A stretch of 64,000 nt of DNA from Ignavibacteriaceae bacterium (GTDB lineage Bacteria > Bacteroidota > Ignavibacteria > Ignavibacteriales > Ignavibacteriaceae), in contig JABWCL010000008.1 of assembly GCA_013360295.1 (NCBI GenBank), positions 1 to 64,000 of the forward strand, written 5' to 3'. The position numbers and the translations under genes are program-made. Position 1 is the stretch's first letter; the number at the start of each line of letters is the position of its first letter. Positions 44,380 to 64,000 of the stretch are shown here, piece after piece. The notes beneath the pieces are model-generated. The model saw only the letters and a program-made list of their open reading frames with translations, made no database searches and was not told the origin of the DNA.

Positions 44380-45075
44380 TCACGCCATCACCCTCTCCAG
44401 CCGATCCTTCCACTTTTCCCATGATGGCAGCATTTTGTTTTGAACTTCAAGGAATTTTGTGTTATGCCCGAAATGGACAAGGTGGCAGAGTTCGTGAACG
44501 ATAACGTATTCGATACACCCTTTGGGTGCTTTTATCAATTCTGAGTTTAGTATGATTCTTCCTTTTGCAGTGCAGCTTCCCCAGCGTTTAGGCATATGCT
44601 TAACCAAAACTTCCTTTGGTTTTACATTATATTTGGAAAAGCGTTCAACCCATTCATCGCAGTATTCCGTAAATTTTGCTACGGCGTGTTCTAAATACCA
44701 TTTTTCGAGCAGCTTCTTCGCTTCCCTTTTCTCCTTGCACGTCACGGTGAGAAACCGTCCGTGAAGTTTGACTGAATCCCTTTTACCTTTAAGTACTTTC
44801 AGTCTGTATTGCCTGCCCAGATAAAGAAACGTTTCACCGCTTACATATTTTTTTGGCGCTTGTTTTGGGAAATATGCCATGAAAAATGTTTGCTGCTTCA
44901 GTATCCAGGGAGCTCGTTTGTGCAATATCTGATTTATCTTTTCCTGATTTGCTTTCAATGGCGCTTTAATTAGCACTTCTAATTCTGGTGTAACAGTAAT
45001 TCCAAGGGTCTTTCGGTTAGTGTAACTAAGTATATAATCGATTGTTTTTGAACCGTATTGAAATGCCCTGGTCAT
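44380..45075 (-). CDS. YgjP-type zinc metallopeptidase (DUF45/WLM-like)
   Basis: A 231-residue protein with HELCH at 194-198 in VIVHELCHLVHFGH, the zinc site of the YgjP/DUF45 family. It also has the family's MPKRWGSCTAKGRI block just before. Its start overlaps the HsdR stop (TAATG), and such genes are commonly found at the end of type I restriction operons. Substrate and role there are not established; processing of the restriction complex or of DNA-protein crosslinks (SprT-like fold) has been considered. Complete and intact. Confidence 0.88.
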   Translation of the reverse strand: MTRAFQYGSKTIDYILSYTNRKTLGITVTPELEVLIKAPLKANQEKINQILHKRAPWILKQQTFFMAYFPKQAPKKYVSGETFLYLGRQYRLKVLKGKRDSVKLHGRFLTVTCKEKREAKKLLEKWYLEHAVAKFTEYCDEWVERFSKYNVKPKEVLVKHMPKRWGSCTAKGRIILNSELIKAPKGCIEYVIVHELCHLVHFGHNTKFLEVQNKMLPSWEKWKDRLERVMA

Positions 45076-48000: not shown

Positions 48001-48296
48001 TTATAGACATACTCACAAGAAGCCATATACCCTTCCTGCATCGGTATGTCTTTAAGAAACTGAATTGCAGATTGAATATTTCCAGTTGTGAAGCCGAAGG
48101 TGTTTCCTTTGTAAGTAATGGAATTTATTTTTTCAAGCTGGGAGCGCAAAATTCCCTCCAGAAGTACTGAAGTGGTCTTACCGTTGCGTTGCTTCAGAGC
48201 TTCATCTGGGGAAAGGTAGTTATACCCCAGATTTACCAAAATTTGAAGGGCTGGGATTTGGCTAATATGGTCTTCTTTGAAACTGGGGGTGTTCAT
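45075..48296 (-). CDS. hsdR: Type I restriction enzyme, R subunit
   Basis: A 1073-residue HsdR. The nuclease core is D153 ... E167-C-K169 (PD-ExK type, in VCIIECKRP). The helicase motor has Walker A GSGKS at 348-352 and motif II DEGH at 446-449. It also has motif III-like VAMTGTPL, and the C-terminal helicase motif DAPANTVLYLTRNLRDHSLLQ. The helical C-terminus contacts the M/S core. It cleaves unmodified DNA after ATP-driven translocation when assembled with HsdM and HsdS. It sits 4 bp after the SIR2-like gene. All key residues are present, so it should be active. Confidence 0.95.
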   Translation of the reverse strand: MNTPSFKEDHISQIPALQILVNLGYNYLSPDEALKQRNGKTTSVLLEGILRSQLEKINSITYKGNTFGFTTGNIQSAIQFLKDIPMQEGYMASCEYVYNLLTLGKSLEQSIDGDKKSYTIQFIDWQRPENNVLHVTEEYSVMRAGSSEHYRPDLVLFINGIPVCIIECKRPDMKDPLKQSISQHLRNQQDDGIRSLYVYAQMLLGIATNQALYATNATEEKYWNIWTEKFHNSEQEQSYNSTLQNLKNTPLAPEVKSNIFSERFRYVRNYFETLEQELLTSSEQDRYLYSLCRPERLLDFIFNFIVFETGIKKIARYPQYFALKKTMERIRTLQEGKRRGGVIWHTQGSGKSLTMVMLAQAIALDQSIKNPKIILVTDRVDLDNQITGTFIKCGRYVENATTGKKLLELLESASDAVITTIINKFETALKQTNKVFNSPDIFVLVDEGHRTQYGSFNIQMMKTLPNACFVAMTGTPLMKKEKNTAVKFGGLIDTYTVDKAVADGAVVPLLYEGRHALQDVNEKPIDDYFLKISEPLTEYQKTDLKKKFSKADQLNIADQKVYAIAWDISTHFRDNWQGTGLKGQLVCQSKIAAIRYKNYLDEIGIVETEVLISPPDEREGEESAYEKSDDLVKNFYQKMMNEHRTQKKYEENLISRFKTQQQPEIIIVVDKLLTGFDAPANTVLYLTRNLRDHSLLQAIARVNRVYPDKDFGYIIDYYGVLKELGEAMDKYTEMAEYDSDDLIGTLSTVAEEIKKLPQQHSELWDIFKSLPNKKDEEAYEQLLRDEAIRTTFYHKVSIFTRTLKLALSTLQFHKDTPEKLINAYKEDAAFFLNLRSSVNQRYSDTIDFSQYGKQLQKLIDKHITTAEVKPITELVNIFDKDEFNQELDKTFGAAARADTIASRTARHISESMDDDPAFYKKYSQMLRETIQAYVEKRISELEYLRQTTSIMDSVLSHTDKDIPEELSGNDTAKAFYGLVMESIGGHLSDETKRKSVSAESALGIDSIIQNLVMDGGKPIIDWQDKSNVTGKMLINIGDYLIDEVRDKYNITLSFDEIDAIAERCIEVAKRRYK

Positions 48297-48300
48297 TGCT

Positions 48301-49878
48301 TTATAATTTAGGCGTCAATAAATTTGATACGACTTTAAGCCATATGTCATTTTTTTGTAATCTGGTATCTGGGTTAACACAAATAACCTGAATATTCTCC
48401 TTAAATTTCATATCTAATCGAAGATTAATCATTAACTCTCGACGTATATCCTTGGTATCCTCTTTAATATTAACCCAAAATAGTTTTTTACCTTCTATTT
48501 CTATTAACTCTCGGAATAATCCATTTATATGGCTGTCGTCGGTATTAAAATTATAACCGATCACAATTATTGCATCAGAATTTTTTAATTTGTCAAATAA
48601 CTCAACATATCTTCTCGAAATACTTACGGAGGTCAATGGTTTTAGTCCACTTTGTGTTAAAATGAATGGAACTAGAATTTGATTTTGAGGAACAAAGTCG
48701 ATATCAGAATAATTAGTTACGGTGTTTTTGTAAGGATTGAAATAGTCAGTAACAGCCCCATTTAGGTGATAAATATGTTTGATTTTATTAAGAATTTTTC
48801 CTTCCAATACGTTTTCAATAATATTGTTATAATTGGACGTTCCAATAGCATTGATTTCTAGATCATATTCAGCACAGTTTCTTAAATCGCTATAGTAACC
48901 ATCATTCAAGTATTGTTTGTCAGCAATATTTGCCTTTATAAGAGAATGAGCAGAGCGCAAGAATAGAATCATTTTAGTGAATTTTGCCCATTCTTTTTGG
49001 GGTGAAAACAAGTAACGAAAATGACTATCGATTAATCCCTGATAATCGAGTATATCGCAGAAAAGTGAATCTAATACTTTTTGACATACTTTTACGAATA
49101 AATCCGTGCATTCACACTCCAGATAGTTTTCTAAAGCTTCATTTTTGGAGTTCGCCTGTTTGGTTTCTAAAAGTAATTCTATTGCAATTAAACCTGCTTT
49201 ACTATATTCGATTCTGAACATACCGAAGATATCATCAAAAATTGGAATATCGTCTGGCGCCTTTGTAAAAAGATCCTGATTTAATTTTTGTATCAATTCT
49301 TGTCCGTGCGCTCCCACAAAAAGCTGTAAAAATGCTCCAGCATATCGACGCAAAATATTCGTACTAATTTCGTTTTGAGCTGTACCACTTTTAAGTAAAT
49401 CAAGTATGGAGGAAAAGTATATTGATTCAAATAATTTGCTCTGTTTTGCAAGCATTTCATTAATTTGAACCACCTGACTGTATGTTTCTTCTCCAATACT
49501 CTTGCCTGTTAATTTACCGAATTTTGTCTCCAAAAGAGTTTCTTCAATCCTTAGCTCTTTTGCGGCGTTTCGAAAAAGTAAGTCAAAATTATCGAGTAGT
49601 GATATTATACGCGAGCGATTAACTTCTATAGTAGACTCAATTAAATCTCCAAATTCATTTTTCCCAAATGCATGAATCCTTTTATTTTTATAATCTTTGG
49701 GCAGCCATTCTGTTGCATAAATATCCTTTTCATTTATCTTATAATTCAGTTGATTGTGTAATTCAGTTTTGAGATTGGATACATTCTGTCGGAAAAGCTC
49801 CAGTGCAAATTTTCCACCAGATGGTAACCCATATGAAACTTCTGCTCCAGCACCAAAAAATATTCCTATCTTCTTCAT
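48301..49878 (-). CDS. SIR2-like protein inside the restriction operon
   Basis: A 525-residue protein. The N-terminus GIFFGAGAEVSYGLPS (GAG-x3-S at 9-15) is the NAD-binding start of SIR2-fold proteins. Later motifs are AIGTSNYNN (like TNYD), IYHLNGA (like HG) and AIIVIGYNFNTDDSHIN. The long helical insert (about 100-330) is typical of defence-type SIR2 proteins rather than deacetylases. It starts with a 4-nt overlap on HsdS and ends 4 bp before HsdR. A likely role is NAD depletion as a second line of defence. Catalytic residues are not certain from sequence alone. Confidence 0.75.
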   Translation of the reverse strand: MKKIGIFFGAGAEVSYGLPSGGKFALELFRQNVSNLKTELHNQLNYKINEKDIYATEWLPKDYKNKRIHAFGKNEFGDLIESTIEVNRSRIISLLDNFDLLFRNAAKELRIEETLLETKFGKLTGKSIGEETYSQVVQINEMLAKQSKLFESIYFSSILDLLKSGTAQNEISTNILRRYAGAFLQLFVGAHGQELIQKLNQDLFTKAPDDIPIFDDIFGMFRIEYSKAGLIAIELLLETKQANSKNEALENYLECECTDLFVKVCQKVLDSLFCDILDYQGLIDSHFRYLFSPQKEWAKFTKMILFLRSAHSLIKANIADKQYLNDGYYSDLRNCAEYDLEINAIGTSNYNNIIENVLEGKILNKIKHIYHLNGAVTDYFNPYKNTVTNYSDIDFVPQNQILVPFILTQSGLKPLTSVSISRRYVELFDKLKNSDAIIVIGYNFNTDDSHINGLFRELIEIEGKKLFWVNIKEDTKDIRRELMINLRLDMKFKENIQVICVNPDTRLQKNDIWLKVVSNLLTPKL

Positions 49879-51107
49879 GATCTGTATTCCTTGTTGATAA
49901 TTCGTTTCTTTCCAGTTAACAAAACCTGCATTAAGCCCTTTTTCAGTAAAATAATTTCATCCATTATTTCTTTTAGCCTTATTATTTCTTGGTCAATTTT
50001 TTCCAAAAATTCTGCAATTGCCTTTTGTTCTTCGATTTTGGGAGCCTTAAACGACAGGTTTTGAAGATGTTCCTGATTTAGTGTTTTCCCTTTTACAGCT
50101 TGTCCAGCATCAGATTTATCTACTGCTTTAGGAAGAATATAATATAGTAGTCGATCAGTAATTTTTGCTTCATCTGGATAAATCGCTACAATGGCTTCGT
50201 TTGTATATAAGTCTTTTCCCGCCCATGCCATTTTGCCAAGTGTCAGCTTAAAACTCATTAACAACGTACCCTTGGCTACTTTATTTGGCTTGCATTCACT
50301 TAATGCTATATCGGATAAGTACTCTTTTGAATCGAATAGTACTCTTTCTTTCATGTCTGAGATAGAAATCCAAATATTTTTAGGGTTAGGATTGTCCCAA
50401 TAGTTCTCATTTATACGAGAGGGGGTTTTACCAACTTTTAATGTTGCAACGGCACCAAGTGTAATATATTTCCACTCCCCACTAAACCCCTTCAACCTCT
50501 TTTTTCCAGTGAGCAGTTGCTGCATAAGGTACTTTTTGCGGAGTTCTTTTTGTTTAATAAGCTCCTGCGTTTTTTCAATGGCTTTATCCCAAGTGCTTAG
50601 CAAATTGGCTATGGCTTTTTGTTCGGGGAGAGGAGGAGCTGTGAAAATTATACTGTAAAAATCTTTGTGATTCAAATCTGGAATGGTACTTAAGCCAGCT
50701 TTTACTAAAAGAATATGTTGAACTTTTGTGGATCTTAAATATGCAAGTAAGAATGCCTTGTCAACTTTATTTAGATCATATTTGACCTTAAAGAAATTAT
50801 TATGAAAAACTCCACAAACATTTGAAACAACAATACCTGTATTCCCTGTTCTTGTCATTAAAATATCGTCTTTGTCGCAACAAACAGAACTGTTGGGGTT
50901 CAGGATATATTCTTTCTCTTTTTGGTTATTGAGGTATTGAATAGTAATATAAATTTGGCTACCTTCCACAAAACTTTTGAGCCTTTCATCAATTGGAATT
51001 TGAAGTCCTTGGTTAACGGTGCAAATATCGGAGAATTTTAATTCCTCCCAGTCCTCAGGTATCCACCCAAGTGCAGTAAGCTTAAACCCAGGTTTACTTT
51101 TCTTCAC
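49875..51107 (-). CDS. hsdS: Type I restriction enzyme, S (specificity) subunit
   Basis: A 410-residue, full-length HsdS with two target-recognition domains (about 1-165 and 205-360). Each is followed by a conserved helical spacer: PLPEQKAIANLLSTWDKAIE ... LLTGKKRL, and EEQKAIAEFLEKIDQEI ... LLTGKKRI. The GWIPEDWEE start is typical. It sets the bipartite DNA sequence read by the HsdM/HsdR complex. It overlaps the RhuM gene by 14 nt. A second, half-size S gene is at the head of the operon. Confidence 0.93.
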   Translation of the reverse strand: MKKSKPGFKLTALGWIPEDWEELKFSDICTVNQGLQIPIDERLKSFVEGSQIYITIQYLNNQKEKEYILNPNSSVCCDKDDILMTRTGNTGIVVSNVCGVFHNNFFKVKYDLNKVDKAFLLAYLRSTKVQHILLVKAGLSTIPDLNHKDFYSIIFTAPPLPEQKAIANLLSTWDKAIEKTQELIKQKELRKKYLMQQLLTGKKRLKGFSGEWKYITLGAVATLKVGKTPSRINENYWDNPNPKNIWISISDMKERVLFDSKEYLSDIALSECKPNKVAKGTLLMSFKLTLGKMAWAGKDLYTNEAIVAIYPDEAKITDRLLYYILPKAVDKSDAGQAVKGKTLNQEHLQNLSFKAPKIEEQKAIAEFLEKIDQEIIRLKEIMDEIILLKKGLMQVLLTGKKRIINKEYRS

Positions 51108-52122
51108 TTTTTCTGCCCCTTTTTGGTTTTCCTGAAATCTTTTTTACTTCTTTGTCAAAATCACTCTCAAAGCTCCTGTCCTGCAATACACGGAATTTGT
51201 CATATTCGCTCTGCGCCAATGAAAAAGCAGCTTCATGGGAGACTTTGCCAGCATCTTTGAGTAAGCTGTAATCATTAAACTTAAGGAATCCGTCTAATTT
51301 CGAAGCCCATTCTTTCATGGTCATTGGAATTTTCCGTTCTGCCTGGTTTTCTGCATAATCAAGGTACATAACCACAACCCGATTGAGGGCTTTCAATTCC
51401 TCTTCAGTAAGATAATTCTTCGCGACACCTACGTCGGATTTCATGATTTTTCCTGTTGGGGATTGTTTCCAAGTGGTAAGTCCCATATTTGGCTTGGAGG
51501 CATTAGCCCGTTCAGAAATTAGTTCTGAAGCTGTTTTACCAGTTATTGCCCAGTGCAGTTTGTTTTGTACTGTTTTATAAAACTGTTGGGTTGTGTCTGA
51601 GTTAGGGTCATAATCAATACTGCATTCGGCGTAAATGTCCGTAATCTTCTGATAAAACCGCCTTTCGCTCGCCCTAATTTCCCGTATACGCTCAAGAAGC
51701 TCGCCGAAATAGTCTTTGCCAATTTTTGCACCTTGTTTCAGGCGCTCATCATCCAGAACAAATCCCTTAACTATAAATTCTCGCAGGGTATTTGTAGCCC
51801 AGATTCTAAATGCCGTCGCCTCTCTGGAGTTTACCCTATAACCGACGGCGATAATCGCGTCCAGATTATAAAATTGTATATCTCTGGCGACATTCCTATT
51901 CCCTTCTTTTTGAACTATCCGAAATTTTCGGATAGTTGACGCCGCCTGCAATTCCCCTGAATTAAAAATGACTTCTAAATGATCATTTACAGTACGAACA
52001 TCAACGTTAAACAATTCCGCCATCTTTTTCTGCGACAGCCAGAATGTTTCACCCTCGTAATAAACCTCAACTGTAGCATTACTTTCAGGCGTAGAGTATA
52101 ATAGAATTTCAAAGGTCTGCAT
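51094..52122 (-). CDS. RhuM-family protein
   Basis: A 342-residue protein of the virulence RhuM family: VEVYYEGETFWLSQKKMAEL, a helix-turn-helix-like segment (FNVDVRTVNDHL), the conserved YNLDAIIAVGYRVNSREAT and FRIWATNTLREFIVKGFVLD, and the C-terminal QNKLHWAITGKTASELI. Such genes are often placed between hsdM and hsdS in type I operons. Their function is not established; a DNA-binding or modulating role is usual speculation. It is 2 bp after hsdM. Confidence 0.88.
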   Translation of the reverse strand: MQTFEILLYSTPESNATVEVYYEGETFWLSQKKMAELFNVDVRTVNDHLEVIFNSGELQAASTIRKFRIVQKEGNRNVARDIQFYNLDAIIAVGYRVNSREATAFRIWATNTLREFIVKGFVLDDERLKQGAKIGKDYFGELLERIREIRASERRFYQKITDIYAECSIDYDPNSDTTQQFYKTVQNKLHWAITGKTASELISERANASKPNMGLTTWKQSPTGKIMKSDVGVAKNYLTEEELKALNRVVVMYLDYAENQAERKIPMTMKEWASKLDGFLKFNDYSLLKDAGKVSHEAAFSLAQSEYDKFRVLQDRSFESDFDKEVKKISGKPKRGRKSEEK

Positions 52123-52124
52123 AC

Positions 52125-53657
52125 TTATATTCCCAATTCTTCAAGATATTTCTTCATTTCTTTGCGTACGTCTGCAAGTTCGTTTTCCAGCTCTTCAATG
52201 CGCTTCTGTACGGCGGCGATGTCAATTTCTTCCTCCTCTTCAAACGTATCAACGTAGCGGGGGATATTCAAATTAAATTCATTTCCTTTTATTTCCTCAA
52301 ATGTGGCAACGTAGGCGTATTTCTCTTCAGTCACTCCAGCATTAAGTTTTCCAGAATTGAATTTTCTGTATGTATCAACGATATGGTTAATGTCTTCTTC
52401 GCGCAGCTTGTTCTGGTTTTTTCCCGCCTCAAAATGTTTGCTCGCGTCGATAAATAAGATATTTGTGTTCTTTCTCTTTCCTTTATTGAATATCATTATT
52501 GCGGCAGGAATTCCTGTACCAAAAAACAGATTTGCTGGCAGGCCAATAACGGTCTCAAGAATGTTCTCCTCAATTGTCTTCTGCCTTATCTTTCCTTCCG
52601 CAGCGCCTCTGAACAATACTCCGTGCGGAACAACAATCCCGACTTTACCTTTTCCTTCATAAGCGGTTTCAATCATATGGCAAATAAATGCCCAATCTCC
52701 CTTGCTTTTCGGAGGGACTCCGCGCCAGAAACGGTTATAGGGATCGGTTGCCGCTCCTTCAGCGCCCCACTTATCTAAACTGAACGGGGGATTCGCTACA
52801 ACAGTATCAAACTTCATCAGGGCATCACCTTCTTTAAGCTTAGGATTGCCGATTGTATCTCCCCAGCGTATTGTAGCATTGTCAAAACCATGCAGGAACA
52901 TATTCATCACAGCCAGGGCCCACGTGCTGCCGTTTGCCTCCTGCCCGTAAACAGAAAAATTATCAGAACCAATTTCTTTTGCAGCTTTAATCAGCAGGGA
53001 ACCTGAACCGCAAGTTGGATCACAGATACGGGCGCCAGGGGCTGATTTAGTAAGTCTGGCCAGCAGAGTTGATACTTCGCTCGGCGTATAAAACTCACCC
53101 GCTTTCTTTCCTGCATCGGAGGCGAAATTAGCAATTAAAAACTCATATGCATCACCAATAATGTCCCTGCCTTCCAGGTGCGAAGGACGAAGATCCAGCT
53201 TTGCGTCGCTGAAATCAATCAGCAAATTCTTTAATCGGTTATTCTTATCTTTTGCATCGCCGAGATTACTTGAATTAAAATCAATATTTCTGAAAATACC
53301 AGAGCCATCTTCGCCGCCAAGTTTCTCTCGGTTTGATTCTTCAAGATCGTTAAGTGCAATGTTGATTAGCTCCCCGATATTTGAATCATTCCTGTGATCA
53401 AACAAGTACTCAAATGTGCAATGCTCGGGCACTACAAACCTTTCGTGTTTCATCGCCCTTGCAACACGCTCTTTATCTTTGTTGTACTTCTTCATGTAAG
53501 AATCATAAATATCGCGGTGCACATCGCTGACATATTTGATGAAAAGCATTGTTAGAATGTAATCCTTATACTGACTCGGGTCTATCACCCCCCTGAAAGT
53601 ATCGCATGCTTTCCAAACGATGTTGTTAATTTCTTTTTGAGTTATTTTTGTTTCCAT
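52125..53657 (-). CDS. hsdM: Type I restriction enzyme, M (methyltransferase) subunit
   Basis: A 510-residue HsdM. I take the ATG at 53657 because GCGGA precedes it and homologues begin with KITQ-EINNIVWKACDTFRG. The TTG at 53684 would overlap the half-HsdS gene. N6-adenine methyltransferase motifs are FYTPSEVSTLL, DPTCGSGSLL (SAM binding) and NPPF at 289-292 (catalytic). The C-terminus is a coiled coil (VQKRIEELENELADVRKEM) for contact with HsdS. It protects host DNA and forms the core enzyme. Intact. Confidence 0.95.
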   Translation of the reverse strand: METKITQKEINNIVWKACDTFRGVIDPSQYKDYILTMLFIKYVSDVHRDIYDSYMKKYNKDKERVARAMKHERFVVPEHCTFEYLFDHRNDSNIGELINIALNDLEESNREKLGGEDGSGIFRNIDFNSSNLGDAKDKNNRLKNLLIDFSDAKLDLRPSHLEGRDIIGDAYEFLIANFASDAGKKAGEFYTPSEVSTLLARLTKSAPGARICDPTCGSGSLLIKAAKEIGSDNFSVYGQEANGSTWALAVMNMFLHGFDNATIRWGDTIGNPKLKEGDALMKFDTVVANPPFSLDKWGAEGAATDPYNRFWRGVPPKSKGDWAFICHMIETAYEGKGKVGIVVPHGVLFRGAAEGKIRQKTIEENILETVIGLPANLFFGTGIPAAIMIFNKGKRKNTNILFIDASKHFEAGKNQNKLREEDINHIVDTYRKFNSGKLNAGVTEEKYAYVATFEEIKGNEFNLNIPRYVDTFEEEEEIDIAAVQKRIEELENELADVRKEMKKYLEELGI

Positions 53658-53670
53658 TGTTATTCCGCTT

Positions 53671-54222
53671 TCAAATTTTTTCAATAATTCTTGTATCTGT
53701 GATTTGATCTTTGAGCGACATCAGTTCATTCTGGATGCACTTTTCTTTTTTCCGCAGCTCATCAACTTTAAGGATCAGTTGCTGTATATGAAGGTCGGGG
53801 ATTTTAACTTCCAGATTGCCAAGGGCTTTCATTGATATGGAAGCAATCGATGATCCCTTTGCTTCGGATTTCAATTTTTTTTGGCTGTCGGGGTGATTAA
53901 GGAACCATACGAGGAAATCGGGAAGTATTTCTTTTGTGGGTTTTAATACGAAAAAGGAAGAAGAGGCTACGGCTGAGGGATATTCGTCCCTATAAATCGC
54001 GGCAAGGTTTTTGTCTCCCTTTGCTGCAAACAGAATATCGCCAGCGTTTAGCAGGTGATGGGAGAGTCTATCGGTTATAGATATTTCAGGTATAAGATGA
54101 GTGATCAATTGCCCCCTTTCATTGAAGTCTTTCAATTGAATGTAAACAGTATTGCCGAACTGATTCGGCTTAAGATAAATCCCTGTTTGGATTCTGACTA
54201 TGTCTTTAAGAGCTGGCACCAA
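53671..54222 (-). CDS. Half-size HsdS-like specificity subunit
   Basis: A 183-residue protein with one target-recognition domain (IVRIQTGIYLKPNQFGNTV, SSSFFVLKPT, FLVWFLNHPDSQ, GSSIASISMKAL) and one helical tail (IQQLILKVDELRKKEKC). This is the layout of half-S subunits that act as dimers. It starts at TTG 54222, or GTG 54219. It is the first gene of the operon, 23 nt downstream of a strong Bacteroidota-type promoter. It may offer an alternative specificity to the full HsdS. It is not a fragment of that gene by sequence. Confidence 0.85.
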   Translation of the reverse strand: MVPALKDIVRIQTGIYLKPNQFGNTVYIQLKDFNERGQLITHLIPEISITDRLSHHLLNAGDILFAAKGDKNLAAIYRDEYPSAVASSSFFVLKPTKEILPDFLVWFLNHPDSQKKLKSEAKGSSIASISMKALGNLEVKIPDLHIQQLILKVDELRKKEKCIQNELMSLKDQITDTRIIEKI

Positions 54223-54565: not shown

Positions 54566-55849
54566 TTAAATAAGATTAATCAAACAATAATTTTTCTTAC
54601 CAATTCGGATTACTAATAATCTTTCAGATATAGCTGATTCAAGGGTTATCGTATAATTGATGTTCGCACACTTTTCATTGTTTATATAAACGCCACCACC
54701 ACTAACCAGATCCCTGGCCTCACGTTTACTAGCGCATAGGTTAATTTTAGTTAATAATTCAATCACATTAATTCCATTGCTTATCGCAGTTTTATCCAGC
54801 TCTCTTTTGGGAACATCATCAAATATTTCTAGTACCTGATCTATAGTCAGGTCCTTAATCTCGCCACCGAATAAAACGTTGGAGGCTTTAATAACTTTTT
54901 GGAGGGCTTCTTCACCGTGAATAATTTTTGTGATTTCGGAGCTCAATATTTTTTGAGCTAATCTCTTTGAAGGATCCTGCCGATGTTCTGAAATAATCTG
55001 TTCAATATTATCAAGCTCCAAAAATGTAAAATATTTCAACATTTTTTCAACATCATCATCAGTAGAATTTAACCAGTACTGATAAAACTTATAGGGAGAT
55101 GTAAGCTCAGAGTCTATCCAAAACGCATTACCTGCGGATTTACCAAATTTTTCTCCATTCGAAGTTGTAACCAAAGGAAAAGTAATTCCAAAAACCTCGG
55201 TTTGCCTTAATTTCCTCACCAAATCTATTCCGGCAGTTATATTACCCCATTGATCATTCCCGCCCCCCTGAATCATGCACTTATGATTATCATATAGGTG
55301 CAGGAAATCGTAAGCTTGCATAAGCATATAACTAAATTCTGTATAACTCAGTCCTGTTTCCCGCTCCTTATCTTCCAATCGTCGCTTAACTGATTCCTTG
55401 CTGAGCATGTAATTAATCGAGAAATATTTGCCAATTTCCCTAAGCCATTCAATAATACTGAGTTCTTTTAACCAATCGTTGTTATTCACCATTACAGCAG
55501 CATTAGTTCCCTCGAAAGTGAAAAATTTACCCAATTGTTTTTTTATGGCTCTAACATTTTGTTCGATATCCTCAGCCGAGAGTAGTTTTCGCTCCGTACT
55601 CCTACCCGAGGGATCACCGATCATACCTGTAGCCCCGCCAACAAGTATAATTGGCTTATAACCGGCTCTTTGTAAGTGACACAATACCATCACTGGGAGC
55701 AGGTGTCCTACGTGTAAACTTGTTGCGGTTGGATCAAATCCTATATATATTGGGACAACGCCTCTTTGCAATTCTTTGATTAATTCTTCTTTGTTGCTGA
55801 TTTGTTCAATCATGCCTCTTTGTAAAAGAGTTTCTAAAACGCTGGTCAT
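54566..55849 (-). CDS. tyrS: Tyrosyl-tRNA synthetase
   Basis: A 427-residue, complete class I synthetase. HIGH-type motif HVGH at 46-49, KFGKS at 234-238, the tyrosine/adenylate pocket sequences GGATGMIGDPSG and QGGGNDQWGN, and a C-terminal S4 RNA-binding domain (ASKREARDLVSGGGVYINNE). It charges tRNA-Tyr. Its start overlaps the 191-residue gene by 4 nt. It ends an operon with a tyrosine-decarboxylase-like enzyme and sigma-54-type regulators, not a housekeeping setting. This recalls tyramine operons of lactic-acid bacteria, where a second tyrS precedes the decarboxylase. Probably a paralogue of a housekeeping copy. Confidence 0.95.
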   Translation of the reverse strand: MTSVLETLLQRGMIEQISNKEELIKELQRGVVPIYIGFDPTATSLHVGHLLPVMVLCHLQRAGYKPIILVGGATGMIGDPSGRSTERKLLSAEDIEQNVRAIKKQLGKFFTFEGTNAAVMVNNNDWLKELSIIEWLREIGKYFSINYMLSKESVKRRLEDKERETGLSYTEFSYMLMQAYDFLHLYDNHKCMIQGGGNDQWGNITAGIDLVRKLRQTEVFGITFPLVTTSNGEKFGKSAGNAFWIDSELTSPYKFYQYWLNSTDDDVEKMLKYFTFLELDNIEQIISEHRQDPSKRLAQKILSSEITKIIHGEEALQKVIKASNVLFGGEIKDLTIDQVLEIFDDVPKRELDKTAISNGINVIELLTKINLCASKREARDLVSGGGVYINNEKCANINYTITLESAISERLLVIRIGKKNYCLINLI

Positions 55850-56421
55850 ATATAATTCTCCGTATTATAAATTTCCTTAAATCTTCTTATCCATTGGGTA
55901 TCAATTGATGAAGAAATATTATAAAAAAATGATTCTTCTAAATGCGCCACATTAACCTCTAATAGGTTGATAATTTTTTTCAAAGTTATCACGCAGAATG
56001 GCTCTTCTAATAATATGTTCCTATAATCATGCAATAACGGGATAATCGCTCTTGAGATATTATCAATATCCATGACTAATAATTCCGGGGAAAAGCGGGG
56101 GGAACATAACCTCTCTAAAGATAATTCATATAGATTTTCAGATGATAGTACGAGAACAGAGCTGTTGCCATGCCTCTTGTTCATAATTTTTAGCCAGACT
56201 TCAGGATAAGGAGGTATATTCCATCTAAGTGTTTTTCTACCATCTTCTATAATACACTCGTAATAATTATTTATTATAAGAATCCTTGCTTTAGAATATT
56301 TCGCAACAGCAACATCATTTAATACATTATCTTTATACTTTTGAATGGACATTATTTGAGATAGAGTATTAACCAACAAGCTCTCTGATCCCACATAAAA
56401 CGCAAATCCGTCGACGATCAT
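55846..56421 (-). CDS. Unknown protein between the decarboxylase-REC and TyrRS genes
   Basis: A 191-residue product with no family recognised. It overlaps tyrS by 4 nt (ATGA) and starts about 1 nt after the decarboxylase-REC stop, so it is tightly coupled to both. It appears alpha/beta (ARILIINNYYECII, SSVLVLSSENLYELSL, ELLVMDIDNIS), then helical. The strand-acid pattern LLVMDID is faintly like a receiver domain, but no phosphorylation triad can be assigned. Probably a dedicated subunit of this operon's product complex. Confidence 0.7.
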   Translation of the reverse strand: MIVDGFAFYVGSESLLVNTLSQIMSIQKYKDNVLNDVAVAKYSKARILIINNYYECIIEDGRKTLRWNIPPYPEVWLKIMNKRHGNSSVLVLSSENLYELSLERLCSPRFSPELLVMDIDNISRAIIPLLHDYRNILLEEPFCVITLKKIINLLEVNVAHLEESFFYNISSSIDTQWIRRFKEIYNTENYI

Positions 56422-56422
56422 T

Positions 56423-58828
56423 TTAGTTGCCGGTTAATTCGGTTAAGTATTCCCAAAATCTTTCCTGAAAAGATTTTGTGAGATTTTGATTCGAGTCCTT
56501 ATCTACACAGTTAATCTTCATATCCGATTTATAAGAACTAATCAACAGATCAATTTTTTCTTTGTTTTGATTTAAATAACTGGAATTAAACAGCACCATT
56601 TTCAGGCTATAATGCATAGGGTCTTTGAGTATGGTTTCGAACAATTCAATTCCCCCCTCATCATTATGTTTTCCAGTTAAATTTATATCAAGTATAACCA
56701 AATCGTACTCCCGGTTGTTTAGGACGCTTATTGCGGTTTCCTTGTTAAGTGCTTGATCAAAAACAATAGCATTATTACCCCTAAAATTAGGAGAATCTAT
56801 CAACTGTTCCTTTATGGTCGGGTTATCATCAATGATTAATATTTTTATTTTTCTCATAAGCTTATCAATCATCATCTTATTAATTTCCACCACTATTGCA
56901 TGTATAAGATAATCACTGAACTCTTGCAATATTGATTGGGAATGAACATTCTGAGCAGTAACAGTGAACGGGCTCATAACCACAGATCTTAATACTGGAA
57001 AATCCGAGTTTTCATCAAGGTCGATTTCGATATTATGATGTGAGAAGTATTTTATTAAGTCCTTAACTTTAAGCTCTGTGCTGACAACCATAAAAGTTTT
57101 ATTTTCAGTTGTAGGCCATAAGTGATATCTTAACAGTCTGTCATGAAGCTCTTTTAACCTGCTAAGTTTTCGAATGTGTTTATTATAAATAAAATAATTA
57201 AGAATATTTGTTTCTGGATATTTATTAATGATATGTATACCAATGTCATACTTGTTATCTTTTTCCAAATGCACCGCAAGACTTAGCGCGCCCATCATAG
57301 ATGATAGTATAATTTTTCCATGACCCGCAGTATTTAGGGGAATAAGGCTTGTGGACAAATAAATTGCCGTGGCGGCAGCGCCCGGCCTTGATCCTTCAAC
57401 AGTAAATCTTCCAACAAACGACGGATCATCTCGCCATAAATAAGGAGCATCAAAAGATACAAATTCAAAGCTTTTTTTGTTCTCAAACAAGATCATACCG
57501 GCTGCGTAGGGAATATAACCGAGCTTATGCGGGTCTAATGCTAGGCTATGTGAATATTTAACCGCAGACAATTTTTTTATAATTTTATCTAATGGCACTA
57601 AATCAAGGAAATTCTGCATCTCATTTAGATCAGGCTCAATTTCAGAAACAAACAGTTCCTTTCTTATGATTTCCTTAATTTCTGCGGATTGTAAGAATTC
57701 TCCCTTAGCGTTCTTTAACGCAGAGAATAAATATCCGCCATATGCTCCGTCTATATGCCACCAGCACCCCAATTCCCGTACTCTGTCTTTAATCTTATCT
57801 ATTTGATCAATGCTGCCTTGCTCGGTTGATCCCAAGATTGATACCGTAGCCAATATAATTTCCTTTTCGCGAATGGCTTTCTCTGTAACTTCGAAATATT
57901 TTTCCGTATCTATACTAAATTCCGAGTTATAATTAACGGCGAGCAATGAATTTTTACCAAGTCCCAATATTTCAATAGCTTTTGGTATGCAGTAGTGTTT
58001 GTTGATAGCTGCAATAATTTTTATTCCACCATTTAAGTACTTTTCATGTTTTTCTTTAGGAAAAGTATCTTTTAATAAATCAAAAAACATACTAATTCCA
58101 AGAGATTGTAAAGAATATTTGTCTATTTCTTTATGATATTCTTCTTTTATGAATTCTGTTTTGGTTGTCACTTCGTCATATATCGTTATTATTTTATCTG
58201 GTGAATATCTTAGAATATCGTAACAAGAACATTCATTTACCAGTTCATCAACTAAGCCTATTTCAATTAGTATTTCCTTTATTATGCTACTTTGAGTATT
58301 CTTGAGCATGCAGCAAAGCGAGAGGGGCCAAAGTTTAATGTTTCTTGCTACCCATAAAGCTTGAATATTCGCGGCAGTACCGCCACTGGTTATATAACCG
58401 CTTCCTTTTTTTGAATCGAATCCAACCATATTCAGGTATTCTCTAATCGCCAAATCCTCTAATTCGCTGGTAATGGGAGATGATTCACGGGCCACATTAT
58501 TTTGATTGTATAAAAGCCCGGCTATATATCCAATTAAACCTGGTATTAACAAATCCGTATTCATGTGTCCCAGATACCTTGACGAAGCAAAAGGAACATT
58601 CTGCTTTGCTCTTGATAAAAAATTAAAAACGGTGTCTCGCATATTATCATAAAATTCCAAGTAATCTTTATTGGTTTTATCCGCGTGTCTGATTGCAGGC
58701 TTATCATTGGGATAAAAATTTCGTCTCCAATAAACATGATCGGCGATTATATCATTTATCAGACTCTGAAATTCCTGATGGTTTTCACCTTTCGGGCCAA
58801 GCATAAAGGATTTTATATTACGATTCAT
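56423..58828 (-). CDS. Tyrosine-decarboxylase-like PLP enzyme fused to a receiver domain
   Basis: An 801-residue protein. Residues 1 to about 655 are a group II PLP decarboxylase closest in pattern to bacterial tyrosine decarboxylases: SSRYLGHMNTDLLIPG, LYNQNNVARESSPITSELE, ITSGGTAANIQALWVARNIK, WWHIDGAYGGYL. The PLP lysine is K435 in LDPHKLGY. Residues about 661-790 form a response-regulator receiver domain: acidic pair D667-D668 (LIIDDN), phospho-acceptor D714 (LVILDINL), FNSS near the switch position. Phosphorylation might control amine formation, or the enzyme might be a sensor. Neighbours are two sigma-54-type regulators and TyrRS. I know of no such fusion. Confidence 0.88.
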   Translation of the reverse strand: MNRNIKSFMLGPKGENHQEFQSLINDIIADHVYWRRNFYPNDKPAIRHADKTNKDYLEFYDNMRDTVFNFLSRAKQNVPFASSRYLGHMNTDLLIPGLIGYIAGLLYNQNNVARESSPITSELEDLAIREYLNMVGFDSKKGSGYITSGGTAANIQALWVARNIKLWPLSLCCMLKNTQSSIIKEILIEIGLVDELVNECSCYDILRYSPDKIITIYDEVTTKTEFIKEEYHKEIDKYSLQSLGISMFFDLLKDTFPKEKHEKYLNGGIKIIAAINKHYCIPKAIEILGLGKNSLLAVNYNSEFSIDTEKYFEVTEKAIREKEIILATVSILGSTEQGSIDQIDKIKDRVRELGCWWHIDGAYGGYLFSALKNAKGEFLQSAEIKEIIRKELFVSEIEPDLNEMQNFLDLVPLDKIIKKLSAVKYSHSLALDPHKLGYIPYAAGMILFENKKSFEFVSFDAPYLWRDDPSFVGRFTVEGSRPGAAATAIYLSTSLIPLNTAGHGKIILSSMMGALSLAVHLEKDNKYDIGIHIINKYPETNILNYFIYNKHIRKLSRLKELHDRLLRYHLWPTTENKTFMVVSTELKVKDLIKYFSHHNIEIDLDENSDFPVLRSVVMSPFTVTAQNVHSQSILQEFSDYLIHAIVVEINKMMIDKLMRKIKILIIDDNPTIKEQLIDSPNFRGNNAIVFDQALNKETAISVLNNREYDLVILDINLTGKHNDEGGIELFETILKDPMHYSLKMVLFNSSYLNQNKEKIDLLISSYKSDMKINCVDKDSNQNLTKSFQERFWEYLTELTGN

Positions 58829-58861: not shown

Positions 58862-60805
58862 TTAGGTTAAATAGTACTGTTGTAACGCTTGCTTAAGAAA
58901 TTCATCTTTATTGATAAACATTTGTTTTGCCTTATCACTTTGGTTGTCTTTAACCATATTTGATATATTCCCCTGACATATATTATATAAAATATATAGC
59001 AGTTTATCTTCTAGCATCTTTGAGCGCACTGCGTCCGAAACATTAAAAACCTTTAGAAATTCATCTTTCGCGGCTTTAGTCTTGATACTTGAATTTCCGA
59101 ATAATATCTGAGCCACCCCGGTTATTGGTAAAATTGTATCTTCCCGCCGATCATATGACAGCATAAAAATAAATGCTGCTTTAATTAAATTCCCCAACAT
59201 TAACGCTCTTGATTCTTCCATTTTGGGGATTAACCCTTTAAACTCAAGAGGATTTAAAGAATCAAACGGAAAGGCTTGAATTTGCTTTATTAGAGTAGCG
59301 CTTGATTTCAATTCCACTTTATTATTGTCAGTTTTTGCGCCATGGGTAACATTGAGGATGTTTTTAAACTCCAGATGATTAGATGATAAATATCTTAAGA
59401 TTTTAAATTTCTGAACTGCTGAAAATAACACCCTCTCTAACCCTCGAATGTTTTCATCCTTCCAGTCATGATCGATGAGTTTGTTAAGGGCATCATCTGT
59501 TAACTCTCTTTTTTGAGCTGAAAGTAGTTTCTCGAATTTGCGCAGAAAATGAATAGCAAGACTAGGGATATCTTCCTTACGCTCTTTTAAGGATGGAAGG
59601 ATTATTGGTGAAAACGCGTTAATTCTTGCCAGCAAATCGCTTCTATACTTTTTGCCAGAGGCCATTGCTTCGAAGCGATTTGTCGCTAGAACAACCTGTA
59701 TGTTTGGTGTGGGCTCTATGGGGTCTTCTGCACCTAATCTCTTGGTTTCTCTTATGTTTTTATCCAGTAAACGAAGTAACTTGGATTGCACTGTAAGAGG
59801 AATCTCTCCAAATTCATCCACAAATAAAGTTCCTTTATCCGCTTTTTCGGCTGCTCCCTCTTTTGCATAAAGAGCATTGGTAAAGGCTCCCCGCACCCAA
59901 CCAAATAATTCCCCCTCAATAAGTGTTTCACTTACTCCTTCGGTAAACACTGTGTATAGGATACCTTTACGATTAGACATTTTATGAATATAGGAGGCGA
60001 TTAACTCTTTTCCAGTTCCAGTTTCACCAACCACCAAAATATTATCTCCGCCCTTATCGAAATTAATCATACTTCTGTTTCGAGCCTCTCTAAGACATCT
60101 TAAAAGTTCTGTTGAGCCACCAATAATGTAATTGTAATTATTGTTTTTATTATCAGCAATTCGTTCCGCTGTTAGAAATAAACGATCTACCATCTCGTTA
60201 TCTTCTAACAATCCATACTCAAATAGCAGTTTTAGTATTCCCCTATAGCCGTCAATTTCTGTCTTTTCGATAAACCCCATTACACCAAGATAAGAAAACT
60301 TCTTTTCATCATAATCTTCACGTTGACTGGCAGACATAAGGATAATTGGCAGATTATTATATTCCGGCTCCTCTGAGAGAGCTTCAACAACAGTTAATCC
60401 GAAATTCTCCTCATTAAATTTTATATCAAGCAAGATCAAAGACCAGCGGGGACGTTTCTTCCACCCGCGACTGATTGCCTCTTTAACTCCCTCTAAATCA
60501 TTAGTATACTTATCACCTCTAATTTTCTGACCAGAATGGAAAAATACTTTTGCCACAGGGTGATATAAAGGTTCATCTAATCTTAAGCATTGATTTTCCT
60601 CCTTTTTTTTCTCCATATTCATTGGCCTGATATAATTGTATTTATCAGCTATATCTTTACTAATCTGATCAACATCTCTTTCAGTTATATTTATCAGCCC
60701 ATTCGCAATGCAAAAATCTTCTCTGTCTTCAGAATTTTTTTCTCTGCCAAGACGATCGTCAATAACCAATATCCGTGGTAAGTCTGATATAATAATTTCA
60801 TTCAT
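58862..60805 (-). CDS. Sigma-54-type AAA+ response regulator with atypical receiver and GAFTNA loop
   Basis: A 647-residue protein. The receiver has acidic D16-D17 and phospho-acceptor D127 (LILLDIKF). The about 110 residues between them, against about 40 normally, show a large insertion. AAA+ domain: Walker A GETGTGKE at 260-267, the sigma-54 contact loop is GAFTNA (306-311) rather than GAFTGA, Walker B LFVDE (327-331), and arginine finger region RSDLLARINAF. The C-terminal 190 residues lack an obvious Fis-type HTH. The altered loop suggests weakened or changed sigma-54 contact. Overlaps the upstream 161-residue gene by 4 nt. Confidence 0.85.
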   Translation of the reverse strand: MNEIIISDLPRILVIDDRLGREKNSEDREDFCIANGLINITERDVDQISKDIADKYNYIRPMNMEKKKEENQCLRLDEPLYHPVAKVFFHSGQKIRGDKYTNDLEGVKEAISRGWKKRPRWSLILLDIKFNEENFGLTVVEALSEEPEYNNLPIILMSASQREDYDEKKFSYLGVMGFIEKTEIDGYRGILKLLFEYGLLEDNEMVDRLFLTAERIADNKNNNYNYIIGGSTELLRCLREARNRSMINFDKGGDNILVVGETGTGKELIASYIHKMSNRKGILYTVFTEGVSETLIEGELFGWVRGAFTNALYAKEGAAEKADKGTLFVDEFGEIPLTVQSKLLRLLDKNIRETKRLGAEDPIEPTPNIQVVLATNRFEAMASGKKYRSDLLARINAFSPIILPSLKERKEDIPSLAIHFLRKFEKLLSAQKRELTDDALNKLIDHDWKDENIRGLERVLFSAVQKFKILRYLSSNHLEFKNILNVTHGAKTDNNKVELKSSATLIKQIQAFPFDSLNPLEFKGLIPKMEESRALMLGNLIKAAFIFMLSYDRREDTILPITGVAQILFGNSSIKTKAAKDEFLKVFNVSDAVRSKMLEDKLLYILYNICQGNISNMVKDNQSDKAKQMFINKDEFLKQALQQYYLT

Positions 60806-61287
60806 AGTATTAGCTCCTTCTTTAAATCTCTTAATAAATCAAATACTTTCAAAGTTAGTTCATTCATTTTACTCATATGGATTAAAAGAGTGGAAGAGTC
60901 AAGATCATGTTTACAAATGTCAGCGTAAATAAAATCTATCTCAAAAACAAGGTCGGAAATCAGCGGAAGCCCGGGATAAATTTGAATTAACTTGCCTGCT
61001 TTAAGCGCCACAACAAGAAGCTTTTTTTGAAAATCATCTGCATTTTTCAGTGGGTCAAGGCGGAGAAAGCACAGCAGTGTTTGATATGTTTCGTAGTTAT
61101 CAATTAACCACTTTATATTATCCCTTAAATCTTCCCATAGTTTCAATTTTATTCTTAGGTCTGTTATTGCAATGCGATTAATTTTCACCTGTGTTATCGC
61201 TGCACATAATCTTGTTGTGAATTTTGGAAGTTGGTCGTGGGAAATTCCTTCCCTCTGTCTTACCCATGTCAAGTCAGGAGGTGTCAT
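60802..61287 (-). CDS. Small helical protein of the decarboxylase-REC operon
   Basis: A 161-residue product, apparently all alpha-helical (LRIKLKLWEDLRDNIKWLID, FQKKLLVVALKAGKLIQI, MSKMNELTLKVFDLLRDL). No transmembrane segment and no known domain. It begins 3 bp after the NtrC-like gene and ends overlapping the next regulator's start (ATGA). The size and helix pattern would suit an adaptor or a histidine-phosphotransfer-like bundle; several histidines are present but no HPt motif stands out. Confidence 0.65.
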   Translation of the reverse strand: MTPPDLTWVRQREGISHDQLPKFTTRLCAAITQVKINRIAITDLRIKLKLWEDLRDNIKWLIDNYETYQTLLCFLRLDPLKNADDFQKKLLVVALKAGKLIQIYPGLPLISDLVFEIDFIYADICKHDLDSSTLLIHMSKMNELTLKVFDLLRDLKKELIL

Positions 61288-61290
61288 TTT

Positions 61291-62811
61291 TTAATTCATT
61301 AATTCTTCAATATGTGTCCTAATTTGCGGATACTTTTCATAGTCTGATATTCCCCAGGGTGCCTTTGACAGTCTTCTGATTAAATCATTAAATCCTTTTG
61401 CACTCGGAGCCTTGTTTTCGGGATACATTATCCGCATAAATTCTGCTTTCCAGTGATTGCCCTTATAAGATTTTATTCGTTTTTTTAATAAGATCGCCAA
61501 TTTCAATTCCGCAACTATTCTTTCTTCAGCCCAATTCTCAACAATATTCGACATACCATCCGATCCTTGCGAAATACCGGTGGATGACCCTGTTTGTTTC
61601 GTAATATTCTTTAATTCTGCCGGAAGTGAATCTAAATCTATTGTTTCTGACCGGCAGATTATCGCGGCTCTTTCAACTATGTTTTTAAGTTCTCTAACAT
61701 TGCCAGGCCAGGAATATGCTCTTAAGGCAGAAAGTGCATCATCACTGAATCTTTCGGCTCTGTAAGATGCGCCCGGACCCGTCTTAAACTTTTTCAAAAA
61801 CAAATTTGCAAGTATAGGTATATCATCTTTTCTCTTTCGAAGAGGGGGCAAAGATATTTCAAATGACTTAATACGATATAAAAAATCATTTCTTATAAGG
61901 TTATTATTCACCAGAATGTTTATATCTTCATTTGTCGCAGTAATTAGTTGAAAATCGGAGATCAGATTTTCAACTCCTCCAAGCCTGTAAAATGTTCTGG
62001 TTTCTAATACTCGGAGTAGTTTCCCCTGTAGTTCCATTGGAATACTGCCTATTTCGTCTAAAAACAGCACTCCTTTGTGTGCTCTTTCAATTTTACCAAT
62101 GTATCTTTTATCGGCCCCGGTAAAGGCTCCCTTTTCGTGTCCGTACAGCTCATCATCTAACAGTTCTGACCTGGAGTGCGCACAATTTTTATCAATAAAC
62201 GAGTATTTTCTTCTTGGGCCTTGTCTGTGAATAGATCGCGCCACCAATTCCTTCCCTGTGCCACTTTCACCGGTAATTAAGACTGCCGCTGAGCCCCCCA
62301 TAGCAACCCTTACTATCTGAGAACGAATCTTGCGTATTTCATTAGAGTTTCCCCAGAGCGCATAATCAGATTCATACGCATTTGGACTTAAATATATTTT
62401 CAGAAGGTTTTCCAACTCAGCCACCGCAGGCCTTTTAATTAAATACTCATTAGCCCCAAGTTCCATAGCCTTTTCAAGTACTTCCAGATCATTTTCAACA
62501 GATGTCATCATAAATATGGGAAGTAAAGGATATTCACTCCTGACAGCCTTAAGTATTTCCAACCCATACCTATCGTTTTTATCTCCATACATTACATCAA
62601 GAACCATTACATCAACATTACCAATCTCACTAATTTTTTTTAGAACGGGTCTATAAGAATAACTATTAGGTGACTCTTCCGCAGTTTCATAATAGAAATT
62701 AAAAGCGGGATCTTTTGCTAACAAGGAACCGAAAGAGGCAATGATAGTACCTTGTTCTTCCGGACGACACCACTGATCATCAACAAACAATATATTGTAA
62801 AAATTTCTCAT
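61291..62811 (-). CDS. NtrC-family sigma-54-dependent response regulator
   Basis: A 506-residue protein. The receiver domain has D11-D12, phospho-acceptor D72 and lysine in YLIKRP. The sigma-54 AAA+ domain has Walker A GESGTGKE at 181-188, canonical GAFTGA at 228-233, Walker B VLFLDEIG and the arginine-finger region IRNDFLYRIKSFEISLPPLRKR. The C-terminal 80 residues (FMRIMYPENKAPSAKGFNDLIRRL, split here) could be a DNA-binding part but are not a standard Fis HTH. This is the competent sigma-54 activator of the operon; the paralogue at 58862 may modulate it. No histidine kinase is visible in the window. Confidence 0.92.
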   Translation of the reverse strand: MRNFYNILFVDDQWCRPEEQGTIIASFGSLLAKDPAFNFYYETAEESPNSYSYRPVLKKISEIGNVDVMVLDVMYGDKNDRYGLEILKAVRSEYPLLPIFMMTSVENDLEVLEKAMELGANEYLIKRPAVAELENLLKIYLSPNAYESDYALWGNSNEIRKIRSQIVRVAMGGSAAVLITGESGTGKELVARSIHRQGPRRKYSFIDKNCAHSRSELLDDELYGHEKGAFTGADKRYIGKIERAHKGVLFLDEIGSIPMELQGKLLRVLETRTFYRLGGVENLISDFQLITATNEDINILVNNNLIRNDFLYRIKSFEISLPPLRKRKDDIPILANLFLKKFKTGPGASYRAERFSDDALSALRAYSWPGNVRELKNIVERAAIICRSETIDLDSLPAELKNITKQTGSSTGISQGSDGMSNIVENWAEERIVAELKLAILLKKRIKSYKGNHWKAEFMRIMYPENKAPSAKGFNDLIRRLSKAPWGISDYEKYPQIRTHIEELMN

Positions 62812-62813
62812 GA

Positions 62814-64000
62814 TTAAGTTCTATTAAAATATTTATTTGGTAAGTTTTTAATTTGAAGCATTGATAATGAACGATGAAGCCGATCTGCGTTTTGCCAGAA
62901 TCTCTCGAGATCATCCCGGCTATACTTTTCAATGCTTGTGGCTGATTTTACACTCCTAACAAATTTATCCACTTCATTAACAATGCTGTCAGGTTTTGAT
63001 AACATATCACTTATAATCAGTTCATAATCTCTTGTGGGTTGCAACTTATATCGTCTGACATCATCCAGCATAAATGATTCTATTCTTCTTTTTACTTCCG
63101 GCCAGTAATCTAGCGCCCTCTTAACTATATCATACCTTGCCATTACTACTGTGTCATCACGATCATTACCCGAGAGATAGTGAAAATAATCAAAAAGAAA
63201 AGCGCTTTTTTGCTCAACGCTCAGCTCATCAGATATTTCGCCCATTTTTAATAAAAATCTATTTTTAACGTAATCATGGTTTATTATAGATCTTTTTTTT
63301 TCATAATCTCTTATGACTTCATTATTTTCTTTTTTTTTTATTATTTCCTTGCATTCCGTATGTACTTCAGATAATAGATATGTCCACCCATCTTGATTAT
63401 CCGGAGCGGTAGCGTCGTTAGCCTCTTCAGAAAGCATAATTTTTCGAAATATTTTCCATAGCTTTAATATTTTTGACCCATCAATTAAGTCATTATTTTT
63501 CTTCAGATCCTCAGGGCTATTTCTTTCTACCTCTTCTTTAAGAACATCAAACCAGTACTTTCTGGTATCATCCTCTCTATTTATTGGCCCAACCAAGTAA
63601 TCACAACTTGTTCTGCTTTTTGCTTCAGCTAAAGTGTTATCGTCTATAAATATTGTCGTTCTGCTGTTTGAGACTCTGTCTGTTGATGAACTTTGTTCTC
63701 TAATTAATAAATTCTCAGGACTATGTAATACCAAGTAACCATACACCAAGATATCCAATGTAATCACAATATTTATGCCCTGATATTCTACAAATAATTC
63801 CTCAATTCTGTAGTTGTCTATTGATTTGGGCAATCTATGCTCACACTGCTCTATATAAGCAACATTTACGTATGTATAATGATATTTCTCAGTATATCCC
63901 ATATTTATGAGATATTTATTTATGTCATTATAAGTTGTTCTATCATCACCTCCAGAGAAAAATACAATTCGCCCCCCAATACCCAGTATATGAGAAGATA
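62814..64000 (-). CDS. Unknown protein, 5' partial at the window edge
   Basis: The frame runs from the stop at 62814 to the right edge with no stop. The ATG at 63902 is internal, because the upstream codons read HILGIGGRIVFFSGGDD. At least 395 residues are seen. The N-terminal visible part (RIVFFSGGDDRTTYNDI) has an SGG-x-D motif reminiscent of PP-loop ATPases, but the rest does not help. The remainder is charged and helical. It ends 2 bp before the NtrC-like gene, so it belongs to the same operon. No confident function. Confidence 0.65.
   Translation of the reverse strand, partial: SSHILGIGGRIVFFSGGDDRTTYNDINKYLINMGYTEKYHYTYVNVAYIEQCEHRLPKSIDNYRIEELFVEYQGINIVITLDILVYGYLVLHSPENLLIREQSSSTDRVSNSRTTIFIDDNTLAEAKSRTSCDYLVGPINREDDTRKYWFDVLKEEVERNSPEDLKKNNDLIDGSKILKLWKIFRKIMLSEEANDATAPDNQDGWTYLLSEVHTECKEIIKKKENNEVIRDYEKKRSIINHDYVKNRFLLKMGEISDELSVEQKSAFLFDYFHYLSGNDRDDTVVMARYDIVKRALDYWPEVKRRIESFMLDDVRRYKLQPTRDYELIISDMLSKPDSIVNEVDKFVRSVKSATSIEKYSRDDLERFWQNADRLHRSLSMLQIKNLPNKYFNRT

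Follow-up and report, generated by a model that had tools for sequence, protein, structure and literature searches.

A group II PLP decarboxylase fused to an atypical receiver domain in a two-component operon of an Ignavibacteriaceae bacterium

The window analyzed here, a 64,000-nucleotide stretch from an Ignavibacteriaceae bacterium (GenBank assembly GCA_013360295.1, contig JABWCL010000008.1, positions 1 to 64,000), reaches into a tight run of ten co-directional minus-strand genes that overlap or are separated by gaps of 1 to 33 bases, from a seryl-synthetase-like gene to tyrS (Table 1). From upstream to downstream, these encode proteins of 324, 778, 582, and 476 aa, a receiver-AAA+ protein with a GAFTGA motif, a 161-aa protein, a second receiver-AAA+ protein with GAFTNA in its place, the decarboxylase-receiver fusion, a 191-aa protein, and a tyrosyl-tRNA synthetase. 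This synthetase is the second copy in the genome, with 34% identity to the other, and its gene lies about 570 bases downstream of the fusion gene with one gene between them. A radical SAM protein and two ABC transporter proteins are encoded just upstream on the same strand, and downstream of the operon come the genes of a type I restriction system, RhuM and SIR2-like genes among them.

Table 1. Features of the operon, of the fusion protein, and of two related decarboxylases
Feature	Position	Strand	Evidence
324-aa protein, type-2 seryl-tRNA-synthetase-like catalytic core	L024:6244-7218	-	3w3s E 1e-14
476-aa protein, no family assigned	62814..64000, start beyond the window at L024:2244	-	open frame
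Receiver + sigma-54-type AAA+ protein with GAFTGA	61291..62811	-	PF00158 E 4e-55, PF00072 E 1.4e-8, motifs
161-aa protein	60802..61287	-	no significant family
Receiver (long insertion) + sigma-54-type AAA+ protein, GAFTNA replacing GAFTGA	58862..60805	-	PF00158 E 4e-37, receiver hhalign E 1.3e-8, motifs
Fusion gene, decarboxylase + receiver, 801 aa	56423..58828	-	open frame, Pfam PF00282 + PF00072, frame-consistent codon use
Group II PLP decarboxylase, residues 1-655	56864..58828	-	phmmer, Foldseek, 5hsi alignment
Predicted helix 633-660, from enzyme C-terminal domain straight into receiver	56849..56932	-	AlphaFold2
Receiver domain, residues 661-801	56423..56848	-	PF00072, hhalign, residue comparison with 52 genome receivers, predicted strand/helix order (low pLDDT)
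191-aa protein	55846..56421	-	no significant family
Tyrosyl-tRNA synthetase, HVGH and KFGKS present	54566..55849	-	TIGR00234 E 8e-129, over cut-off
EF-hand-tailed decarboxylases	L060:9890-12295 (Scytonema), L061:9917-12301 (Sorangium)		Pfam PF13499

The fusion gene is a single open frame of 801 codons with an ATG start and no internal stop, in which both halves are matched by Pfam, as the original prediction of a receiver joined to the C-terminus of a PLP decarboxylase had it. When the three forward frames were compared by codon score in 39 overlapping windows of 40 codons, the annotated frame came out best in 38, those across the junction (codons 621-660 and 641-680) included, and tied with another frame in the remaining one (codons 481-520). 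The decarboxylase part stops at the same point as its tailless homologues. An assembly join or frameshift could in principle have merged two genes, and it would fit this explanation that the fusion is known from only one of the genomes searched. However, the frame and its codon bias continue unbroken over the junction and the contig is 122,255 bases long, making an assembly join unlikely; the 4.46-Mb genome (92 contigs) is scored 100% complete, and the neighboring genes fit signaling. We regard such an artefact as very improbable: the fusion of receiver and decarboxylase in a two-component operon is real, and it is rare.

Among 58 relatives searched, 20 carried plain decarboxylases (open frames of 255 to 567 aa) and none a receiver fusion. 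At the thresholds used, no second fusion was found in 390 other genomes of the class sample or 394 other genomes of the phylum sample, and no sister gene in 163 other genomes of the order; these four samples overlap. A decarboxylase match was present in 22 other genomes of the phylum sample, 19 of them with a locus in which the matches were read to their ends. Viral contigs contained no decarboxylase with a receiver matching the query, none of the 30 matches listed from 201 plasmid records went past residue 665, and decarboxylase matches in eight phage records ended by residue 658. A tyrosine decarboxylase gene of the bacterial type, which may be host DNA, is present in four records (OR849037.1, OR847390.1, OR846876.1, and OR846598.1) that carry no annotation and are labelled as phages of Listeria and Enterococcus. 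A two-motif scan of 84,980 genomes returned at least 596 stretches, and the best 80 all ended by residue 670. No orthologous fusion that would show selection for the joined form was found in these searches. Operon partners gave a similar picture: nothing usable was found for the 582-aa kinase among 244 further genomes of the class or in plasmids, for the 778-aa and seryl-synthetase-like proteins in plasmids, or for the partners in two viral scans. The receiver of the 647-aa GAFTNA protein had no close relative in plasmids and one weak match (E 9e-6) in 295 other phylum genomes.

Membership of the first half in the group II PLP decarboxylases rests on a PF00282 match in three stretches (E 1e-20, 74.3 bits against a cut-off of 27) together with K435, H278, and D360. 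By phmmer, the closest solved proteins were two tyrosine decarboxylases, from Enterococcus faecalis (7cwx, E 8e-70) and Lactobacillus brevis (5hsi, E 2e-64), together with a noncanonical aromatic decarboxylase from Psilocybe cubensis (6ebn, E 1.2e-60). Foldseek with the AlphaFold2 model ranked the same structures at the top (7cwy, E 2e-39). Using the 5hsi alignment and the residues of L. brevis TDC named in the available portion of PMC4904194, we could map the catalytic set onto the fusion protein: PLP lysine K392 corresponds to K435, H241 to H278, D328 to D360, A330 to A362, D389 to D432, Y398 to Y441, S440 to S480, and the catalytic Y420 to Y463. T151 is also among the residues noted for this part. 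Comparison of residues 1 to 655 with tyrosine decarboxylases thus bears out the expected kinship, and the lysine motif LDPHKLGY, with K435, lies exactly where it had been placed. Judged by these residues, the protein is likely an active aromatic-type decarboxylase that probably works as a dimer on an aromatic L-amino acid. Tyrosine as the substrate stays putative, since the tyrosine decarboxylase equivalog TIGR03811 scored 275.4 bits, far from its cut-off of 905.3. The profile for Orn/Lys/Arg decarboxylases gave no match to the fusion protein (Pfam, E up to 1), and the one other PF00282 gene of the genome encodes a plain 490-residue enzyme.

The second half is more equivocal. PF00072 matches residues 663 to 743 (E 2.6e-7), clearing its cut-off by one bit (31.2 against 30.2), and the match spans profile positions 1 to 72 of 111, leaving the C-terminal half weak. 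Residues 664 to 801 aligned with a profile built from 52 receivers of the genome at an hhalign E of 1.3e-11, compared with 0.06 to 0.5 for four other segments of the same operon. The acidic pair and the phospho-acceptor aspartate are present at the predicted positions (D667, D668, and D714), and G726 is kept too. At the Thr/Ser position, at the end of strand 4, there is Asn748, where all 52 receivers of the genome have T or S, and we class the receiver as atypical on this ground. The conserved lysine is probably K777, which follows the predicted fifth strand (772-776), though MAFFT places K785 there instead. Three residues before it stands Cys774 or, if the lysine is K785, Asn782, a position held by Tyr or Phe in 48 of the 52, so that the aromatic switch residue seems lost in either placement. 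Both neighboring AAA+ proteins retain T/S and Y/F in their receivers. The AlphaFold2 model gave a roughly receiver-like order of strands and helices at low confidence (block pLDDT of 32 to 65), from an input alignment that held no other receivers, which limits the model. The earlier expectation that the receiver triad is intact and that each half looks functional therefore stands for the catalytic residues and the acidic pocket but not for the switch as a whole: the domain seems to keep its phosphorylation pocket but to lack an intact classical switch.

The genes around the fusion make a two-component setting likely, namely the two receiver-AAA+ proteins and a histidine kinase. In the 582-aa protein, a histidine-kinase ATPase region was recognized by hhalign (E 7.7e-8), with a PF02518 match below cut-off (E 5e-4) and, at the N-terminus, a weak likeness to a receiver (E 8e-4). 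Signs of a kinase in the 778-aa protein are weak (hhalign E 6e-4, probability 28%). Both are putative soluble histidine kinases of the operon, the first supported and the second weakly so. Neither AAA+ protein had a Pfam DNA-binding or HTH match at E up to 1, and in the GAFTNA protein the long insertion sits between the first and third receiver strands. For the 476-aa protein, Pfam gave a match to SseK/NleB that stayed below threshold, lay in a stretch rich in helices, and is probably due to chance. The sigma-54 promoter motif matched 8 times in L024 (chance mean 3.6, with as many in 9 of 200 shuffles) and 13 times in the window, where chance gives a mean of 12.4; no match was convincingly placed before the operon, and scans for sigma-70 promoters and terminators did no better than shuffles.

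The best single reading of these data, one we would give an even chance of being right, is that the protein is an atypical enzymatic response regulator in which a phosphorylated receiver directly tunes the decarboxylase. The AlphaFold2 secondary structure runs from a helix at 633 to 660 into a strand at 662 to 666 (ten-residue block pLDDT of 87, 92, and 77), so the receiver would be joined to the last helix of the enzyme with no flexible linker between them. D714 would receive its phosphate from a soluble histidine kinase encoded in the operon, and the phosphorylated receiver may then dock differently on the catalytic dimer, turning turnover up or down; in the noncanonical aromatic decarboxylase of a fungus, an unrelated appendage at the C-terminus plays a comparable part with calcium. 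The same kinase or kinases could set both receiver-AAA+ proteins, so that one signal would reach an enzyme as well as a transcriptional or other AAA+ output. In favor of such a switch are the unbroken frame with its consistent codon use, the mapped catalytic residues, the receiver alignment with its three aspartates, the close spacing of the operon genes, the adjoining kinase and two receivers, and the reliance of the homologous fungal enzyme on its own C-terminal appendage (PMC13062060). Against it are Asn748, the lost aromatic, the one-bit Pfam margin, the low receiver pLDDT, the weak kinase signs in the 778-aa protein, and the failure to find an orthologous fusion. Because the receiver is non-canonical at both the Thr/Ser and the aromatic switch positions, control by phosphorylation can only be inferred.

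Tails on related decarboxylases bear on how the C-terminus is used. An EF-hand pair ends two long-tailed homologues, those of Scytonema and Sorangium, and suggests calcium control of these enzymes; the Sorangium protein is a close relative of the enzyme that calcium activates in the fungus (6ebn, E 3e-168), and a Polyangium homologue (L063) has a tail similar in length to the EF-hand ones. In the fungal homologue, a double beta-barrel C-terminal appendage mediates calcium activation, and the enzyme is inactive without it, as stated in the part of PMC13062060 available to us. Five decarboxylases of one family (f53; L117, L119, L120, L121, and L122) end in a tail of 130 residues, which hhalign aligned with the receiver profile over its full length (E 3e-4, probability 40%). 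No Pfam match was found in the four of these tails that were scanned, and a simpler HMM search did not support a receiver, so we offer only as a suggestion that the tail may be a degenerate receiver. We take this family to be Salinibacter-like. Together, the EF-hand, possible receiver, and fungal barrel tails make control of the decarboxylase by a C-terminal domain plausible. The receiver found here, set beside the EF-hands of Scytonema and Sorangium and the fungal beta-barrel, also suggests a general and testable rule, namely that decarboxylases of this family offer their C-terminus as a site for regulatory domains.

A different role for the receiver would be that of a drifting pseudo-receiver that serves in docking or dimerization independently of phosphorylation and tethers the decarboxylase to an operon partner, such as an AAA+ protein or TyrS. 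The lost Thr/Ser and switch aromatic, the weak C-terminal half of the domain, and the possible degenerate receiver tails of the f53 homologues are what such drift would look like, but all three aspartates are retained and a two-component setting lies alongside. Docking ranks next after phosphorylation control, as a possible though clearly less probable account.

Another decarboxylase, L033, was tried as a pseudo-receiver relative and rejected: its tail of about 115 residues appeared Rossmann-like by eye, hhalign gave an E of 0.08, and AlphaFold2 confidence was low. Its relatives in the phylum sample (4 others of 292) had only frames of 643 to 712 aa. A decarboxylase tree of 120 rows was built, leaving out rows without DPHK, rows shorter than 450 aa, copies of the window gene, and L134, L109, L116, and L040; its EF label took in L063, known here by the length of its tail. 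The window gene had a branch of 1.76 and no starred neighbor, so the tree does not place its origin. Six rows labelled 'pseudo', L033 included, were reported as one group with support of 90, and we claim no common origin for them, since that count omits 110 rows and L033 is drawn apart from the other five.

The surroundings of the operon suggest an island, which does not in itself prove a role in defense. The RhuM and SIR2-like genes lie among type I restriction subunits (45075-54222), and conflict-type proteins abound in the remainder of the window, as judged by eye and in part by profile scan. Further features include an AAA+ protein with a terminal RyR domain and a sub-threshold match to the bpMoxR of ternary conflict systems (25694-28378), a protein with a sub-threshold SLATT match (18805-20457), and, beyond the operon, a tRNA-Ser at L024:18092-18181 that may mark an island edge. 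In a conflict system triggered by infection or stress, the activated decarboxylase would drain tyrosine and halt growth, in the manner of receiver-bearing Detocs-type effectors, with the second TyrS as control or immunity. The conflict-type genes nearby, the absence of the fusion from the related genomes searched, and the link to a second TyrS all speak for this. On the other side, PADLOC matched the scanned operon proteins to no specific defense model beyond shared AAA+ and receiver domains, and no PNP domain was among their Pfam matches. We consider this explanation improbable. Much the same low probability attaches to a bolder model of the operon, in which a cytosolic phosphorelay would drive the two receiver-AAA+ proteins along with a decarboxylase that is switched by its receiver, removes an aromatic amino acid, and is tied to its own TyrS, striking at translation or growth by draining a tRNA substrate, possibly for immunity. 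Detocs, as described in the available part of PMC11249213, is likewise a two-component-derived multi-gene set with an enzymatic effector. The fusion operon has no PNP nucleosidase by Pfam and differs in domain order and gene content.

A fourth view, which we think more doubtful still, is that the operon makes or senses a small molecule, drawing on the decarboxylase for an amine, on the two synthetase-like proteins for aminoacyl adenylates, and on the upstream radical SAM protein and ABC importer. The type-2 SerRS catalytic core of the 324-aa protein, which we take to resemble amino acid:carrier protein ligases, would suit such a pathway, as would the spacing of the radical SAM and ABC permease genes, 3 to 5 bases upstream on the same strand. 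Yet no carrier protein, oxidoreductase, or exporter was recognized in the operon, and its genes are mostly for signaling.

Set beside known systems, the decarboxylase half has the fold and catalytic set of bacterial tyrosine decarboxylases (7cwx, 5hsi; TIGR03811) over residues 4 to 621, but at 24-26% identity, below the TIGR03811 cut-off, and with a receiver added. The presence of tyrS in the gene group recalls the tdc operon (tdc-permease-nhaC-tyrS), as on a Tetragenococcus plasmid, although the fusion operon includes neither an amino acid permease nor NhaC. The Psilocybe cubensis enzyme has a homologous catalytic part whose activity depends on a C-terminal appendage (PMC13062060, in part); there, a double beta-barrel and a calcium activator take the place of the receiver and proposed phosphate of the fusion. 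LdcI and AdiA, of the Lys/Arg/Orn decarboxylases, also combine a PLP decarboxylase with an added domain, in their case an N-terminal wing, whereas they belong to another decarboxylase family and the addition in the fusion is C-terminal. This wing has a CheY-like fold. Lysine, arginine, and ornithine decarboxylases were listed in 2009 among 'probable' receiver-linked enzymes of P2CS, in the part of PMC2716373 available to us, and we therefore count the kind as known. The original prediction had called phospho-control of such an enzyme unusual; the likely two-component setting agrees with it, but novelty has to be narrowed. Decarboxylases linked to receivers are already known in another family, as are regulatory appendages at the C-terminus in this one, and a literature search judged mainly from titles turned up no receiver fused to a decarboxylase of the present kind. 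Ours is a single example with an atypical receiver and a putative function. CheB, PleD, and RpfG are enzymatic response regulators that join a receiver to an enzyme; the fusion differs from them in that its receiver is C-terminal and its output a metabolic amino-acid decarboxylase. Two-component outputs mostly act on DNA or second messengers, and if the receiver directly gates the decarboxylase, this operon would provide a metabolic two-component output that can be read by a simple assay.
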